Shown here: piece by piece, positions 9,304 through 17,057 of the stretch
Numbering within the stretch: the first letter of the stretch is position 1
Layout: the number at the start of each line of letters is the position of its first letter
Virus record (IMG/VR): IMGVR_UViG_3300010354_000844
Coordinates: 1 to 20,835 of that record
Direction: 5' to 3' (one strand)
From: a virus
DNA: 20,835 nt
Program-made: the position numbers and the translations under genes
The notes under the pieces: generated by a model
What the model was told of the DNA's origin: nothing
The model's database searches: none
Seen by the model: only the letters and a program-made list of their open reading frames with translations

Positions 9304-9792
9304 TTATAAGTATTCTATTTTGTAATCCGTAAATGTAAAAGTAGCTGTGGCTATAGCTTCCATAGCATCTGATGTTATTGTATTGAATTGAATCTGAGAA
9401 AGCTCTATAGGGAATAATCGTCTAAAAGACACTTTTATTTTTGGTTTATATGAACTGTTTGTTATTAAAAGATTTGCATCAGATGCTTGATTTTCGTATG
9501 AATTTTTCATATCGGTTTCAAAATAATTACTATTATCTTTCATCCAATTATGAATTTCTAACCAATTTTTTAAATTTTCATCAACTTTAAATCCTATAAC
9601 AAGAGGATCAAATCTAACAGCACCAACAGGAACTTTTATAGGATGACTAAAAATTGTTGGTTGTTCTACTTCTCCAAATTTCATTCCTGGAAGATTTGCT
9701 GCCTGACAAAAATAAACTATATTTGGAATCCTATTTAAACTAAATTCAAAATAATTTATTAATAATGGATTGTTTGTTTCTGGAGTAGGCAT
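9304..9792 (-). CDS. Tail-tube-fold structural protein (possible gp3/gp54-type tail completion or tube initiator)
   Basis: The 162-residue product has the strand pattern seen in myovirus tail tube-like proteins: FEFSLNRIPNIVYFCQAANLPGM (15-37), a V-G or VPVG turn near 55-58, FDPLVIGFKVDENLKNWLEIHNWM (61-84), and a C-terminal ATATFTFTDYKIEYL. The ATG at 9792 is preferred. The open frame runs 18 codons further to 9846, but that stretch is translated terminator hairpin. It lies between gp23 and uvsY, where from memory cyanophages carry a tail completion gene annotated as gp3. It could instead be a tube initiator or another inner-tail protein. It is more distant from the two gp19 copies at 15928-17057 than they are from each other. 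Confidence 0.82.
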   Translation of the reverse strand: MPTPETNNPLLINYFEFSLNRIPNIVYFCQAANLPGMKFGEVEQPTIFSHPIKVPVGAVRFDPLVIGFKVDENLKNWLEIHNWMKDNSNYFETDMKNSYENQASDANLLITNSSYKPKIKVSFRRLFPIELSQIQFNTITSDAMEAIATATFTFTDYKIEYL

Positions 9793-9797
9793 ATTAA

Positions 9798-9805
9798 TAT
9801 TTATG
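9798..9805 (-). promoter_or_regulatory. Late-promoter-like box CATAAATA before the tube-fold gene
   Basis: The minus strand reads CATAAATA at 9805-9798, a one-base variant of the T4 late consensus TATAAATA. It follows the gp23 terminator, as needed to restart transcription. Five bases separate it from the ATG. By T4 numbering (box at -13 to -6) the first transcribed base would be the A of the ATG. The region is AT-rich, so a chance match is possible. Confidence 0.45.
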
Positions 9806-9813
9806 TAAACGAA

Positions 9814-9843
9814 AAGGGGGGTCCTTTTTACGGGACCCCCCTT
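9814..9843 (-). terminator. Strong intrinsic terminator after gp23
   Basis: The minus strand contains AAGGGGGGTCC, an eight-base loop, and GGACCCCCCTT, followed by TTCGTTT. The 11 base pairs are perfect and include six consecutive G:C pairs. The hairpin lies 22 bases past the gp23 stop. It is the only obvious intrinsic terminator in the window and isolates the highly expressed capsid gene from the recombination genes downstream. Confidence 0.9.
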
Positions 9844-9865
9844 CATCGTTAGTTTTACTCACTTA

Positions 9866-11338
9866 TCAAGTGTTACCGTGAATATTGGTAATTCTCATGA
9901 TACGGTAGTATTGGTTTCCACCGAGAGCATTGATGTCAGTGTTCTCAGCGAATGGATTGCTAACCATGCCGTAACGAGTCTTGAATCCAATCTTGGGTTG
10001 GAAAGTGTTTTGATCAACTGCACGTACCATTTGTAGCGGAACGTATGGGCAGTAGAATACACCAGCGTCGTATGGGCTAGCTCCACGATAACCAACTAGA
10101 GCAAAGTCTACACCTAGAGCGGCATATGGATCAATGTAAACCTTGAACTTGCCGTTTAGAATACCAGCAAAGGTGTTGCCAGTATCATCAACTTCTAGTT
10201 GAGTTTGAACAGCAGGAGTGAGGTTTAAGAATCCACCCATAACTAGAGCTGAAGCTACGTCGCTGCTGCAGATAACAAAGTTACCTTTACCACGACGAGT
10301 TTCCTTGGCAATTACGTTGGCTTCGCGTTCAATTTGATACATTAAGCCACGGAAGCGTTCTGCACTCCAACGACCGTCTGAGTCAGCATTTAGATCGTAT
10401 ACACCAGCAGTGGTTAGATCGCTTTGTGAAGCACCTTGTTTAGCGGTACGATATAGAGTGTAAATTAGCTCACGATTAATTTCGTTGAGAATTTCAGTGC
10501 TAAGAATATTAGCAAGTTCACTCTCAGCGTCAAGACCGTGTACAGCACGGAGATCTTGAGCTAGTTCAGTGGTGTATTCGGCCTTTAGAGCACGGGTCTT
10601 AGCTTCTACAGCAAGACGTTCAATGCTAAATGCCATCTCACCAAAAGTTTTTCCTGCTCCACCTTCACCTAGTTGTTCTGCTCTGCTGGTAATCATACCA
10701 CGGAAATCGTTAAGATCAAAGTTAGCATTGCTATCACGAAGACCAACTAGACCGGTTGAAGCACCAAAAGTGCCACCGCTAAATCCGTGCATACCATTAG
10801 CGGCTGAAACACCTACAGGGTTTACACCACCGGTTGCTGAGAATGCAGCACCAGCAGCAGTACCACCGCTACCACCAAACTTAGCAAAAGCTTCTTGGAA
10901 TAGAGCTTCTTGACCGTTACCGACTGTTCTAGCACCACCACCGCTGTCTTGCTTGCCGTAACGGCTACGCATAGCAAAGATAAGACCGGTTGGTGCACTC
11001 ATGGGTTGCACACCAGCAATATCGTAAGCCATTAGGTTAGGCATGCTACGACGAACTAAGCTGATTAGAATAGGATCGTAACCTGCCATATTGCTGTTAG
11101 CACCACCAACACCAGAAACTTGGCTTTGGGTGCTGAGGAAAGCTCCGCCCATTGCATTGGCTGGAGTTTCTATTAGCATTTGCTCACGAAGAGCTTTTTC
11201 TTGATTTTCTAAAAGTTGTGCAGTAACGCGCTTTTTGTAGCTATCTTTAATTTCTGGGAGAGCACCGTGATTAAGTAGTGGTTCCCATTTCTCGGTTAAT
11301 ACGTCGAGAGGTGTAGTATTTGCAAAATCCATTGACAT
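9866..11338 (-). CDS. gp23: Major capsid protein precursor (T4 gp23-like)
   Basis: The 490-residue product (T4 gp23 is 521) forms the hexamers of the head shell. The N-terminal propeptide is helical and ends LIE-T at residues 55-58. This fits the T4 prohead protease rule (I/L-x-E) and predicts cleavage after E57, near the T4 site after E65. The body has the gp23/HK97-like pattern: YDPILISLVRRSMPNLMAYDIAGVQPMSAPTGLIFAMRSRY, then a glycine/alanine-rich insertion (about 130-195), then LAQDLRAVHGLDAESELANILSTEI and a C-terminal VQMVRAVDQNTFQPKIGFKTRYGM-like region. A strong ribosome site AAGGAG precedes the ATG, with a late promoter just upstream and a terminator after the stop. G+C looks higher than in its neighbours, consistent with high expression. 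Confidence 0.98.
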   Translation of the reverse strand: MSMDFANTTPLDVLTEKWEPLLNHGALPEIKDSYKKRVTAQLLENQEKALREQMLIETPANAMGGAFLSTQSQVSGVGGANSNMAGYDPILISLVRRSMPNLMAYDIAGVQPMSAPTGLIFAMRSRYGKQDSGGGARTVGNGQEALFQEAFAKFGGSGGTAAGAAFSATGGVNPVGVSAANGMHGFSGGTFGASTGLVGLRDSNANFDLNDFRGMITSRAEQLGEGGAGKTFGEMAFSIERLAVEAKTRALKAEYTTELAQDLRAVHGLDAESELANILSTEILNEINRELIYTLYRTAKQGASQSDLTTAGVYDLNADSDGRWSAERFRGLMYQIEREANVIAKETRRGKGNFVICSSDVASALVMGGFLNLTPAVQTQLEVDDTGNTFAGILNGKFKVYIDPYAALGVDFALVGYRGASPYDAGVFYCPYVPLQMVRAVDQNTFQPKIGFKTRYGMVSNPFAENTDINALGGNQYYRIMRITNIHGNT

Positions 11339-11373: not shown

Positions 11374-12330
11374 TTATAGATTTTTAACTTGACGAGCTAG
11401 TGTGTTAACATATACAGACATGGGTCCGTCAACGTTAACGGGCTCTTTTTGTTCTGTAAGTGTATCTGGTTCTTTAGCAGCTACAGGAGCAGCTTTAAGA
11501 TAATTTTCTTTGATAATATCAAGTTTGCTCTTGAATTCTTCAGCAGAGTTAAACTCAATATTTTCAGATAGTGTGGCTAATCTTTCAGCATCTACTTGAG
11601 TTAGATCTGAAATTGACTCTAGGAATACACCACGAGCAGCAACAAGTGTTAACTTGTTGTTTAATTCCATATTATTTTTAATTTGTTCGTTTAGTGTTTC
11701 TTCTAGTTTTTGATTTTCAACAAACAGATCTTCGACCATATCGTGTTTGGCTTCGGGAACTTCAACGTAATGGCTTTCGAATAGACTCTTCAAACCATTC
11801 ATAAAACTTTCAGCTACTTCGGTTCTGATTCCAGATTCTACTGCAAGCTTGTTTTCTTGCATCCATTCTTCAACAACATACTCTAGATATTCGTCTAAAC
11901 GAGTTGCCATTTCTTGAACTGTTTTGTTTACTTCTTCTTCTACAAGTTTTGAAGCGTCTTGAAGAAGTTGTTCTTTAATTTGTGAAACTTTTTCGTTAAG
12001 AGCAGTTTCAAAAATTACTTGAGTTTTGTTTTTAAAGTCTTCTGATAAATCTTGGCCACTAAAAAGATTTTCAAAAGCCTCGTAAACACTGCTACCACCA
12101 ACAGGAGCAACAGGTCCACCTTGACCGCCAGCAGCTACTGGAGTGGATCCAGAACCAACTGGAGTTATCACTGCACCACCACCTGGTCTTAGTGATTGCA
12201 TATTTGCTGCAGGATTAGCAGCAGGATTATCTAAAGTACCAAGCATACTTCCACGACCAGAAGTATCCATATCTCCTTTACCAGTAGCATCCATAACGAC
12301 AGGTTTGTTTGTTTTCTTTGTTTTTTCCAT
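11374..12330 (-). CDS. gp22: Prohead scaffolding core protein (T4 gp22-like)
   Basis: This is the main scaffold around which gp23 assembles, degraded later by gp21. The 318-residue product (T4 gp22 is 269) has an unusual N-terminal low-complexity region rich in glycine, proline, alanine and serine (about 10-82). It is followed by the expected acidic helical/coiled-coil body, for example YEAFENLFSGQDLSEDF (84-100), VIFETALNEKVSQIKEQL (104-121) and KLEETLNEQIKNNMELNNKLTLVAARGVFLESISDLT (about 211-247). Many L/I/V-x-E tripeptides are available for cleavage. It lies just upstream of gp23, as in T4, and has its own late promoter and a ribosome site AGGGG. Confidence 0.93.
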   Translation of the reverse strand: MEKTKKTNKPVVMDATGKGDMDTSGRGSMLGTLDNPAANPAANMQSLRPGGGAVITPVGSGSTPVAAGGQGGPVAPVGGSSVYEAFENLFSGQDLSEDFKNKTQVIFETALNEKVSQIKEQLLQDASKLVEEEVNKTVQEMATRLDEYLEYVVEEWMQENKLAVESGIRTEVAESFMNGLKSLFESHYVEVPEAKHDMVEDLFVENQKLEETLNEQIKNNMELNNKLTLVAARGVFLESISDLTQVDAERLATLSENIEFNSAEEFKSKLDIIKENYLKAAPVAAKEPDTLTEQKEPVNVDGPMSVYVNTLARQVKNL

Positions 12331-12351: not shown

Positions 12352-12359
12352 TATTTATA
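12352..12359 (-). promoter_or_regulatory. Late promoter TATAAATA for gp22
   Basis: An exact TATAAATA lies on the minus strand (12359-12352), 21 bases before the gp22 ATG. The predicted leader of about 16 bases holds AGGGG as ribosome site. Confidence 0.85.
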
Positions 12360-12378: not shown

Positions 12379-12906
12379 TTAACTTGCCCCACCAGTACCC
12401 CAACCGGTAGTATGGCCTCCAAGACCAGCCCTAACTCCAACTTTAGCTGCTGTGTCTAAAATAGATGTAAATCCTGGTGCAAAAAATTTAGTTACAGGAT
12501 TATTAATAAGAGCACCAGTAAATTTAGCCATTTTTCCACCCAAGGAACTACTTAATGCTCTTCCAACTAAATTTTGTTTAGTAGGTGGTAGTGTTGTAGC
12601 ACCAAGTCCAGTCATTAACCCTGCTATTCTTGGTGCTAGTCTTGTTTTTAACTGTTTTTCGGCTTCTACAGAAGCTGCTCTTCTGTTTCCATCTATGCCA
12701 AAAAGTGCAGGTCCTATACTTTGCGGAGAAAGAGCAGGAACTGCATATGCTGCTCCTGTAGCTAGTCCTTTAAACCCACCGGTAATTACATCGTAACCAG
12801 AAGTATTTGGAACAAGTGTACCACTTTGTCCTGCTCTTCCACCACTAAGAGAACCACCTCCACTTGGTCCTGCTTCTACAAGTTGTTTTAAACCAGACAA
12901 CTTCAT
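12379..12906 (-). CDS. Probable packaged internal head protein with capsid-targeting peptide (175 aa)
   Basis: I do not recognise a family. The product is 175 residues, rich in glycine, alanine and leucine, with net basic patches (EAEKQLKTRLAPR, GGKMAKFTG). The N-terminus MKLSGLKQLVE-AGPSGGG has the form of the capsid-targeting sequences of T4 internal proteins (MKTYQEFIAE-A): a short amphipathic helix ending in a prohead protease site, here L9-V10-E11 followed by A12. Its ATG overlaps the gp21 stop by four bases, so it is made with the protease. Alanine/glycine-rich stretches near 45-65 and 88-105 could be loosely membrane-active, but there is no clear transmembrane segment. An internal protein released into the head is my inference; another core component is the alternative. 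Confidence 0.75.
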   Translation of the reverse strand: MKLSGLKQLVEAGPSGGGSLSGGRAGQSGTLVPNTSGYDVITGGFKGLATGAAYAVPALSPQSIGPALFGIDGNRRAASVEAEKQLKTRLAPRIAGLMTGLGATTLPPTKQNLVGRALSSSLGGKMAKFTGALINNPVTKFFAPGFTSILDTAAKVGVRAGLGGHTTGWGTGGAS

Positions 12907-13550
12907 CCCAACTTCCTTAAAAAGTCTTCAAATAAACTTATAGCCTTTTGTTCTAGTTCTCGTTTCGATGCAGCAGAAATTTCTCGTTTATATTCTTCTA
13001 TTTGTCTTTCTATAAGAATACCGTTATCCCAAATCCATTCTTTACCTTCCATTATACCATTTACAAATGCACCAGGAGCAGAAGGATCTGCGACAACATC
13101 TACAGCAGAAAGCATAAAATCTGGTTGAACTTCATTATATCCATTTTTAGCTTTTAATGAGCCCATACCACGAGTAGACACACCTAAACGAGCGCCTTCG
13201 GCAATGAGATTTTTTACAATCTCTCCCATAGGAGTACTCATTACTTTAGCTTTACCACGAACATCTGTTCCGTTGCAATTTAATTCTTTAATTATGATAC
13301 AACAACGATCTAAATTTACTGTTGGTCCTGATGGATGATTTAGTTCACCAAAAGCACGATTTTGATTTACAAAATCTTTGGTGTAACGAGCAACTTCATT
13401 TAATAAAATATTTGATGGATATACTCTTTTATTTCTATTAAGAGTATCTGCTTGCATAAAAGTGCCTTCAATAAAAAAGTTTTTTCCACCTTCTGCAGTG
13501 GCTTCGGTCAAAAAATCAACCTGTTCAACCATCTCTGTTATCAGTTTCAT
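12903..13550 (-). CDS. gp21: Prohead core protease (T4 gp21-like)
   Basis: This serine protease of the herpesvirus-assemblin fold matures the prohead. The 215-residue product (T4 gp21 about 212) matches T4 at FMQADTLNRNKRVYP (31-45), FGELNHPSGPTVN (67-79, with the probable catalytic H72), GVSTRGMGSLK (123-133, with the probable nucleophile S125) and VDVVADPSAPGAF (150-162). The N-terminal LTE-A (14-17) and several C-terminal sites could serve in self-cleavage. It starts five bases after the gp67-like stop with only a weak ribosome site (GAGAAAG). Its stop overlaps the internal-protein gene. Confidence 0.96.
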   Translation of the reverse strand: MKLITEMVEQVDFLTEATAEGGKNFFIEGTFMQADTLNRNKRVYPSNILLNEVARYTKDFVNQNRAFGELNHPSGPTVNLDRCCIIIKELNCNGTDVRGKAKVMSTPMGEIVKNLIAEGARLGVSTRGMGSLKAKNGYNEVQPDFMLSAVDVVADPSAPGAFVNGIMEGKEWIWDNGILIERQIEEYKREISAASKRELEQKAISLFEDFLRKLG

Positions 13551-13555
13551 TTAAA

Positions 13556-13966
13556 TTAGTCTTTCTCTTCTTCTTTATCTTTTTTTCCGCCTTTGTCTTC
13601 GGCCCCTTCTTCTTCTTCCGAACCAGATGATTCCTTACCCTCGGTTTCCTCATCTTCATCCTCCATATCTTCGCATTCTCCATCTTCACAATATTTTTCT
13701 TCGTTGACAGATTTTTTTACATCATCGCCTTCTTCATACCACTTACCATCACCATCGCTGTCTTGCCAACGAGTTTTACCCTTTTCTGATTTTTTTGATT
13801 TTTTATGTGACGATTCAAAAATAGTTGGAGCATATTCTTCAAATTTTTCGGCCATAATTTCAGATAATTTTTCATTAAGTATTTCTTGCAGTTTAAATTT
13901 TGCCTGAACTAAATCTTCATTTAAAACTGAATTTATTACTGATGTTATTTCTTTGTTAGTATTCAT
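13556..13966 (-). CDS. gp67: Acidic prohead core protein (T4 gp67-like)
   Basis: The 136-residue product has a helical N-terminus (about 1-52: VLNEDLVQAKFKLQEILNEK and following) and a very acidic, low-complexity tail. This is the same plan as T4 gp67 (N-terminal NDLVAARKLFAEAM, then a D/E-rich tail). The junction APTIFE-S contains a prohead protease site (I49-F50-E51), so the acidic tail should be released as an internal peptide. A DSDGDGKWYEEGDD segment (69-82) resembles a calcium-loop DxDxDG but lacks the canonical glutamate at loop position 12. AAGGAT precedes the ATG; the gene lies three bases after the 123-codon gene. In T4, gp67 directly follows gp20, whereas here another core gene sits between. 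Confidence 0.82.
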   Translation of the reverse strand: MNTNKEITSVINSVLNEDLVQAKFKLQEILNEKLSEIMAEKFEEYAPTIFESSHKKSKKSEKGKTRWQDSDGDGKWYEEGDDVKKSVNEEKYCEDGECEDMEDEDEETEGKESSGSEEEEGAEDKGGKKDKEEEKD

Positions 13967-15927: not shown

Positions 15928-16512
15928 TTATGAGTCTTCTATGTGACTATACGCTAAAGTCACGTTAAACATAGAAATTCTAGCATTTTCATTCATATCT
16001 AATTGTATTGGTCCCACCTGAATAGGCCAACAATTATACATCTTAAAGGTCTTTAGTGCAGTTTCTGTCGGAAGATGATCTAAATGAGTAATAGTCCATA
16101 TATTTCCATTACCAGAAAATGCAGCATCATCACCTTGCCCCACTTTTATTGCAGAACCTAATCGTCTAACACCATAAGTCTCTCCAGTATCTACTATGCT
16201 ATCACTCCAATCCATAAATTTTTTGTGTAAATTTTCTTCTGGATTAGAAGAAGCATCACCAGCACCAACTCTAACATCATCCATAACAGTAACGATCCAA
16301 GGAACAAAGTTTCTAACAGCTGGAATGTTTATTGTTTTTCCTTTGTAATTTACCGGAAAAGGTAAAATATCCATTTCTGGAAATGAAGTTGCTCTAATGT
16401 GAATCTCTATGTCTCCGGTTCCCAAATAAGGACAGTTTTGAGCATTAATCTTGAATCGATTAACTCTAGTACCGCCTCTAAAACCGCCTAAGAAATCTGT
16501 TATTGATGCCAT
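15928..16512 (-). CDS. gp19: Tail tube protein, second copy (T4 gp19-like)
   Basis: The 194-residue product is a paralog of the gene immediately upstream. Both share SIT.FL.GF.GGTRVNRF near the N-terminus, (I/V)NY.G.TINIP in the middle, WTITHL, KTF and WP..(I/V)GP(L/I).LDM towards the C-terminus. These also match T4 gp19 (RKINVAGDRTFDDWTVTVMND, LWPTNVGELQLDW). This copy has extra residues after VTVMDD (VRVGAGDASSNPEEN, about 77-92) and around 108-132, which probably form longer loops on the tube. It begins 11 bases after the first copy's stop with an AGAGGAT ribosome site. Which copy makes the bulk of the tube cannot be told from sequence. Confidence 0.9.
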   Translation of the reverse strand: MASITDFLGGFRGGTRVNRFKINAQNCPYLGTGDIEIHIRATSFPEMDILPFPVNYKGKTINIPAVRNFVPWIVTVMDDVRVGAGDASSNPEENLHKKFMDWSDSIVDTGETYGVRRLGSAIKVGQGDDAAFSGNGNIWTITHLDHLPTETALKTFKMYNCWPIQVGPIQLDMNENARISMFNVTLAYSHIEDS

Positions 16513-16523
16513 CTAATCCTCTT

Positions 16524-17057
16524 TTAGGTGTGTGTGTAGTTAAAATGGGTGTAGAGTATTTTTACTTCAAACGATGCTAATACGTTGTCTTGACTCATAT
16601 CTAAAATAAGTGGACCAATAGTTGCAGGCCATGCTTGAGACAGTGTAAATGTTTTGTGAGCAGTTTCATCTGCATTTTTTAAATGCGTAATAGTCCAGGT
16701 ACAATCAGCAATGCCTGTAGTATCGATACTGATATCTGTTCCATAACTAGTTACTCGTTTATGCCAAGCTTTAAATTTATTGTATAGTTGTTTATCGCCT
16801 CTGTCGTCTAGCACAGTTATTGACCACGGTTCGTATACACGTTCTCCTGGAATGTTTATTGTTCTTCCAAAATAATTTATTCCGATAGGAACAATGTTTG
16901 AACCGGGAATAGTTGCAGCTCTTATGTGAAATTGAGTATCTGTATTAGTTAAAAAGTTTCCAGCAGCACCACAACCAGCGGTGGTTACTTGAAAACGATT
17001 TACTCTGGTTCCGCCACCAAATCCGGCCAAAAACTGAGTTATAGAAGAAACTGCCAT
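16524..17057 (-). CDS. gp19: Tail tube protein, first copy (T4 gp19-like)
   Basis: The 177-residue product (T4 gp19 is 163) is the better positional match to gp19 because it directly follows the sheath gene. It has FLAGFGGGTRVNRFQV (9-24), GINYFGRTINIPGERVYEPWSITVLDD (58-84; compare T4 NRKINVAGDRTFDDWTVTVMND), WTITHLKNADETAHKTF (119-135) and WPATIGPLILDM (142-153). It should stack as hexameric rings that form the inner channel of the contractile tail. AAGGAT precedes the ATG, 21 bases after the sheath stop. No promoter is visible in the gap, so it is read from the gp18 promoter. Confidence 0.92.
   Translation of the reverse strand: MAVSSITQFLAGFGGGTRVNRFQVTTAGCGAAGNFLTNTDTQFHIRAATIPGSNIVPIGINYFGRTINIPGERVYEPWSITVLDDRGDKQLYNKFKAWHKRVTSYGTDISIDTTGIADCTWTITHLKNADETAHKTFTLSQAWPATIGPLILDMSQDNVLASFEVKILYTHFNYTHT

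Follow-up and report, generated by a model that had tools for sequence, protein, structure and literature searches.

The window analysed here is a fragment of 20.8 kb (20,835 nucleotides, an IMG/VR record) from an uncultured T4-like virus. Its 175-codon open reading frame (ORF175) between the prohead protease gene gp21 and the scaffold gene gp22 probably encodes the precursor of an internal head protein that is packaged, processed by gp21 and comparable in the way it works to the T4 internal proteins. We give this reading, which rests on comparisons of sequences, a probability of about 0.7. Across an uncultured clade of T4-like phages, the gp21-gp22 position looks like a hypervariable slot dedicated to head-packed proteins. 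An internal head protein had already been proposed in the initial annotation; the conserved cleavable leader, the place in the operon and the cargo-like body sustain this proposal, whereas the targeting residues known from T4 are missing.

The slot gene and the head genes of the window

On the minus strand of the window, gp17 and gp18 are followed by a pair of gp19-like genes, gp20, two small genes for core proteins of 123 and 136 aa, gp21, the 175-aa slot ORF, gp22 and gp23 (Table 1); the labels gp17, gp18 and gp19 are based on sequence and order, not on a family search. The N-terminus of gp21 itself, MKLITEMVEQVDFLTE/A (slashes mark predicted cuts), is also compatible with a gp21 site. The slot ORF is a real gene, as judged from its GC content at codon positions 1, 2 and 3 (0.55, 0.59 and 0.12) and from its synonymous-codon score, which is close to those of the neighbouring genes and drops sharply in both alternative frames. 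The four-base overlap with gp21 within the head-assembly operon, as annotated initially, was found again and suggests translational coupling of the two genes.

The description of the Gly/Ala-rich body as belonging to no recognised family also held, as PHROGs, Pfam, NCBIfam, PADLOC and PDB sequences gave no match. In particular, no homology of the body to IPI, IPII, IPIII or Alt was detected in PHROG, Pfam, NCBIfam or PDB sequences, and no match in phage records covered the 175-aa protein at a meaningful E-value. The PADLOC result says little about counter-defence, because PADLOC models defence proteins. Structure predictions were all-helical and uninformative (pLDDT 38 and 42).

Table 1. Positions of the slot gene, its parts and other features in the window and in related loci (L numbers)
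Feature	Locus	Position	Strand	Remarks
Slot gene, putative internal head protein precursor	window	12379-12906	-	175 aa, ATG start
ATGA overlap (4 nt), gp21 stop/slot-gene start	window	12903-12906	-	
AAGGAAG, Shine-Dalgarno-like stretch ahead of slot ATG	window	12912-12918	-	within gp21 coding end
MKLSGLKQLVE, putative capsid-targeting propeptide	window	12874-12906	-	residues 1-11; predicted gp21 cut after E11
Gly/Ser-rich stretch past predicted cut	window	12802-12873	-	residues 12-35; no regular structure in low-confidence model
Basic Gly/Ala-rich body, probably helical	window	12382-12801	-	residues 36-175; no internal [LI]xE; helices from low-confidence model only
TATAAATA, T4-type late-promoter motif	window	12352-12359	-	between slot gene and gp22
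gp21 prohead protease	window	12903-13550	-	PHROG head maturation protease, E 5e-76; Pfam Peptidase_S77, E 2e-37
gp22 scaffold	window	11374-12330	-	PF25623 T4_CASP, E 1.5e-60; phrog_237
gp23 major capsid protein	window	9866-11338	-	phrog_138, E 5e-151
Acidic 136-aa core protein, gp67-like by position and composition	window	13556-13966	-	no significant known-function family
Tandem pair, tail-tube-like (gp19) by sequence/position	window	15928-16512; 16524-17057		upstream of gp20
Protein matching tail tube family phrog_45	window	9304-9846		downstream of gp23
Basic leader-bearing gene upstream of gp21	L064	3065-3313		
Basic leader-bearing gene upstream of gp21	L069	922-1305		
Basic leader-bearing gene upstream of gp21	L081	3-371		
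Basic leader-bearing gene upstream of gp21	L082			
Basic leader-bearing gene upstream of gp21	L255			
T4-like-leader gene	L239	8626-8994	-	MKHFVKFIVE/Q
T4-like-leader gene	L239	9719-10435	+	MKHFSLYLQE/E
T4-like-leader gene	L239	10425-10811	-	MKSFIQYLNE/A
T4-type leader outside the slot	L346	4305-4793		162 aa; MKRFIEFLQE/S

The leader peptide

The leader of the window protein, MKLSGLKQ-LVE/A, was set against MKTYQEF-IAE/A of IPII and IPIII, with the T4 record as control. Its start, MKLSGLKQLVE/AG, obeys the gp21 cleavage rule of a short leader ending in [LI]xE before Ala, Gly or Ser. The likeness to the T4 leader that had been claimed extends to the processing positions (LVE/A versus IAE/A) but not to residues 4 and 7, to which the targeting determinants of T4 IPIII were mapped (PMC9026906). 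The Tyr/Phe found there in IPIII are absent from the window leader, which has Ser4, Lys7 and not a single aromatic residue.

Slot proteins were grouped at 50% identity into 48 clusters, and the loci that supplied them also provided 191 clusters of control genes for comparison. A site [LI]xE[AGS] by residue 16 is present in 24 slot clusters versus 10 control clusters (Fisher p 2e-12), several of the latter being scaffold or other head genes themselves; the slot clusters share descent and the counts are thus not independent. After shuffling, on average 1.9 and at most 7 slot clusters had such an early site. The stricter leader M[KR]x(5-9)[LI]xE[AGS] occurs in 13/48 slot clusters and in 0/191 controls. 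The strict site by residue 16 is missing in half of the slot clusters, and since about 5% of the controls (10/191) carry one, its occurrence in a single gene is only weakly above chance.

The leaders of the window and of the relative L103 (MKLSGLKYLVE/A) are identical at 12 of 13 residues, and their first 13 codons differ by seven synonymous changes and one nonsynonymous change. That of L271 reads MKITGLKFLVEA (MKITGLKFLVE/A), and further examples are MKLQFKQLLNE/A (L004), MKIKFSHLTE/A (L013), MKVDLKFLVE/A (L118) and MLSFKQYLRE/A (L178). The enrichment over controls and shuffles, together with the synonymous changes between relatives, shows that the leader is genuine and kept under selection.

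Occupancy of the gp21-gp22 gap

About 300 related loci were gathered with gp21, gp22 and gp23 as baits. The gap was filled in 51 of the 51 retrieved loci with a gp21 at least 70% identical, a set that includes some contigs fetched twice, and 32 distinct slot proteins were obtained. At 50-70% gp21 identity, about a third of the loci were filled (48 filled, 106 empty). No separate gene lies between gp21 and gp22 in T4, HTVC008M, Sf-FR1 or those phages of Rhizobium, Agrobacterium, Stenotrophomonas and Vibrio that were checked, and tblastn searches with six slot proteins returned no homologue from a cultured phage.

HTVC008M was considered as a cultured member and rejected, as its gp21-gp22 ORF resembles an out-of-frame N-terminal portion of gp22. 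This hypothetical protein (AGE60423.1; L162, 4712-5062) suggests by its likeness a frameshift or a misannotated gp22 start. In S-CREM2, for which virion proteomics have been published, the gap of about 80 nt is too small for a slot gene, and the literature yielded no virion proteomics for the window clade. The gp21 relatives on GTDB contigs are distant only and located in mixed MAGs, and do not indicate a host.

A divergent body depleted in gp21 sites

Among pairs of loci whose gp21 proteins are 93-97% identical, median identity is 78% for gp22 and 29% for the slot body, and the leader is conserved between relatives whose bodies cannot be aligned. Slot proteins reach 759 aa; they are net positive in 44/48 clusters versus 41/191 controls and have a G+A fraction of 0.21 versus 0.10, although neither charge nor Gly/Ala content is exclusive to internal proteins. 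Two larger slot families have a common C-terminal domain, whose profile is matched by L103 at E 2.5e-13 although this protein is outside the profile, making it a clear family member. The window body, despite a leader almost identical to that of L103, shows no detectable relationship to the slot families (L009, L012, L103 and others), its profile scores lying within those of shuffles; it may have been exchanged or have diverged past recognition.

In T4, gp21 fragments the core proteins and takes only the leader off the internal proteins (PMC9026906; PMC5694885). Slot bodies contain 48 internal [LI]xE sites versus 74 expected, and that of the window contains none, so that it would escape gp21; the many sites of a core or scaffold protein are not found. 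By comparison, gp22 of the same loci is enriched 2.5-fold (243 versus 96 expected), and control genes are neutral to enriched (580 versus 413 expected). Per 100 residues, this corresponds to 0.35 sites in slot bodies versus 4.24 in same-locus gp22, and in the T4 control IPI, IPII and IPIII have 0 and gp22 has 14. The site depletion, the basic charge and the Gly/Ala richness favour cargo over scaffold, a comparison to be read with charge, shared descent and helix periodicity in mind.

Long slot proteins with a second leader

The window clade includes 13 clusters longer than 300 aa, all with an internal leader-like cassette directly ahead of the C-terminal part, such as AVAE/TYRFGHKELSSLLE/SATG (L118) and RLAE/RYTFEKTELRNLLE/GIYT (L016). 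The cassette motif, which was found almost only in slot proteins, also opens short forms (MNQYNLKFKPGALKSLLE/Q in L009). L012 and L090 have both leaders head to tail, and a methionine persists in the L005 cassette (MNEQYNFRFKTGALKALMQE/G), as expected if two genes had been fused. In the long forms, 11 of the 21 internal [LI]xE sites lie inside the cassettes, which represent 4% of the sequence (p 2e-10); this count omits the cassettes of L004 and L104, missed by the regular expression and seen by eye. Three cassettes have no second Glu because they end in LLND.

The natural reading is that the long forms would be leader-cargo-leader-cargo polyproteins cut by gp21, and no description of such a tandem arrangement was found in the literature searched. 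We tentatively propose, at rather less than even odds, that the gap is a permanent cargo-exchange slot in this clade and that the long alleles are tandem polyproteins from which gp21 excises the internal cassette, freeing two distinct cargos from a single gene.

Expression of the slot gene

The sequence TATAAATA is the T4 late-promoter motif. Of 32 slot loci, 31 have it in the interval between the slot stop and the gp22 start, and none has it in the 140 nt ahead of the slot gene. The evidence lies in this conserved place, because the number of motifs in the window alone is not above chance (4 versus 2.85 expected). As the motif follows the slot gene and does not precede it, the gene is probably expressed together with gp21 and not with the abundant scaffold and capsid proteins.

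Leaders elsewhere and charge of the neighbouring core protein

Directly upstream of gp21, some relatives with an empty slot encode a protein of strongly positive charge (net about +24 to +28) that carries a leader, for example MKTYSEFIAE or MKAFKEFMTE (Table 1). Strict complementarity between these genes and the slot gene was considered and is not supported as a rule. The gp67-like neighbour has a charge of about -40 in most filled-slot loci of the window clade, and in many loci with an empty slot it carries almost no net charge (median -4); a charge pairing of this acidic protein with the basic slot protein is possible.

A DNA pattern for T4-type leaders gave one match across nine contigs. 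In L239, the 88.5-kb contig of L115, three genes with T4-like leaders lie close together, two of them with weak, below-cut-off Pfam matches to peptidase M78/IrrE-like and nucleotidyltransferase domains; they could possibly be enzyme cargo. The genome of L346 (the contig of L095), with its off-slot leader gene, also has a filled slot.

Comparison with known systems

The slot protein resembles T4 IPI, IPII and IPIII by its leader of about 10 residues with an MK start and a hydrophobic-x-Glu before Ala, its net positive charge, its lack of internal gp21 sites and the variability of the bodies. It differs from them by a body without sequence homology and by residues 4 and 7, and since these two properties were tested and not found, it cannot be classified as a T4 internal-protein homologue. 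Moreover, the T4 ip genes are outside the head operon whereas the slot gene is inside, and slot proteins are Gly/Ala-rich, much longer in some cases and, in the long forms, two-leadered. The T-even ip1 locus similarly is a single locus with exchangeable, diverse and encapsidated internal proteins (PMC4437046), but the slot sits between gp21 and gp22, in another phage clade, and is filled in every member seen.

T4 Alt is likewise packaged in the head and processed by gp21, as predicted for the slot protein, but is an ADP-ribosyltransferase, a domain that the slot protein lacks. The ejection proteins of phiKZ and SPN3US and DarB of P1 are also packaged in the head by means of a propeptide or signal at the N-terminus (PMC5694885; PMC9024508). 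However, SPN3US propeptides mostly exceed 100 residues, and the phiKZ/SPN3US and P1 DarB proteins are unrelated and without a gp21-gp22 slot.

Proposed function and alternatives

In the mechanism that we propose, the 11-residue leader would dock ORF175 in the prohead core and gp21, encoded just upstream and translationally coupled, would cut it off after Glu11. The basic Gly/Ala-rich remainder would be retained in the head with the DNA and probably ejected along with it, as precedented in T4, where internal-protein leaders are removed and the proteins ejected (PMC9026906; PMC9391042). The gp21-gp22 gap would be a cargo slot of constant position and leader, with a body that is swapped or diverges fast, a turnover that would fit something meeting the host. 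The long forms would be two joined cargos, each behind its own leader, that gp21 would separate by excising the internal one. Action on the host might consist of membrane-associated help at entry or of neutralisation of host defences, anti-defence being one of two plausible uses.

The first of these uses has a modest chance of being the right one: as an ejection protein, the slot product would insert glycine-zipper-like helices in the host envelope, or bridge it, at DNA entry. [GA]xxx[GA]xxx[GA] repeats occur at 1.75 per 100 residues in slot proteins versus 0 in controls, in L047 and L121 the leader is directly followed by a hydrophobic Gly/Ala helix, and it is in such stretches that L007 and L175 weakly match NCBIfam models, with scores far under the curated cut-offs. 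However, the most hydrophobic 19-residue stretch of the window protein reaches only 0.99 on the Kyte-Doolittle scale, under the usual transmembrane cut-off, and contractile-tailed phages are not known to require such a conduit. The second use, an injected counter-defence protein like the anti-GmrSD protein IPI of T4, is unlikely. The constant leader with body turnover recalls the diverse proteins of the T-even ip1 locus (PMC4437046), and IPIII is required on one E. coli strain (PMC9391042), but no domain, target or host is recognisable, and all members of the clade keep the gene, with a composition common to them, whereas genes for counter-defence are usually gained and lost.

Outside the internal-protein reading, and less probable still, the product could be a structural core or scaffold-accessory protein of the gp67/gp68 type that assists in building or sizing the prohead and plays no further part once ejected. 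T4 internal proteins are dispensable, and a slot that is always filled in the clade could therefore point to a structural role. The location of the gene within the gp20-gp23 operon throughout the clade would fit, T4 gp68 is likewise basic (net +12), and the acidic neighbour (-22 in the window itself) could pair with a basic partner. On the other hand, gp21 sites abound in T4-like core proteins, which are fragmented, but are depleted in slot bodies; a gp67-like gene and a second core gene already lie upstream; and a hypervariable body would be unusual in a scaffold partner. That the leader is a chance match on an unrelated late gene is very improbable despite the 5% of control genes with such a site, given its conservation through synonymous change and the enrichment and site-depletion tests.

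If the internal-protein reading is true, leader-targeted head cargo occurs not only in T4 and phages close to it but also in an uncultured clade, and a gene between gp21 and gp22 would be a homology-free genomic rule for finding such proteins in metagenomes. The T4 system could then be compared with natural leaders and two-cargo designs. The bodies, many and seemingly unrelated, are candidates for proteins acting in the first minutes of infection.
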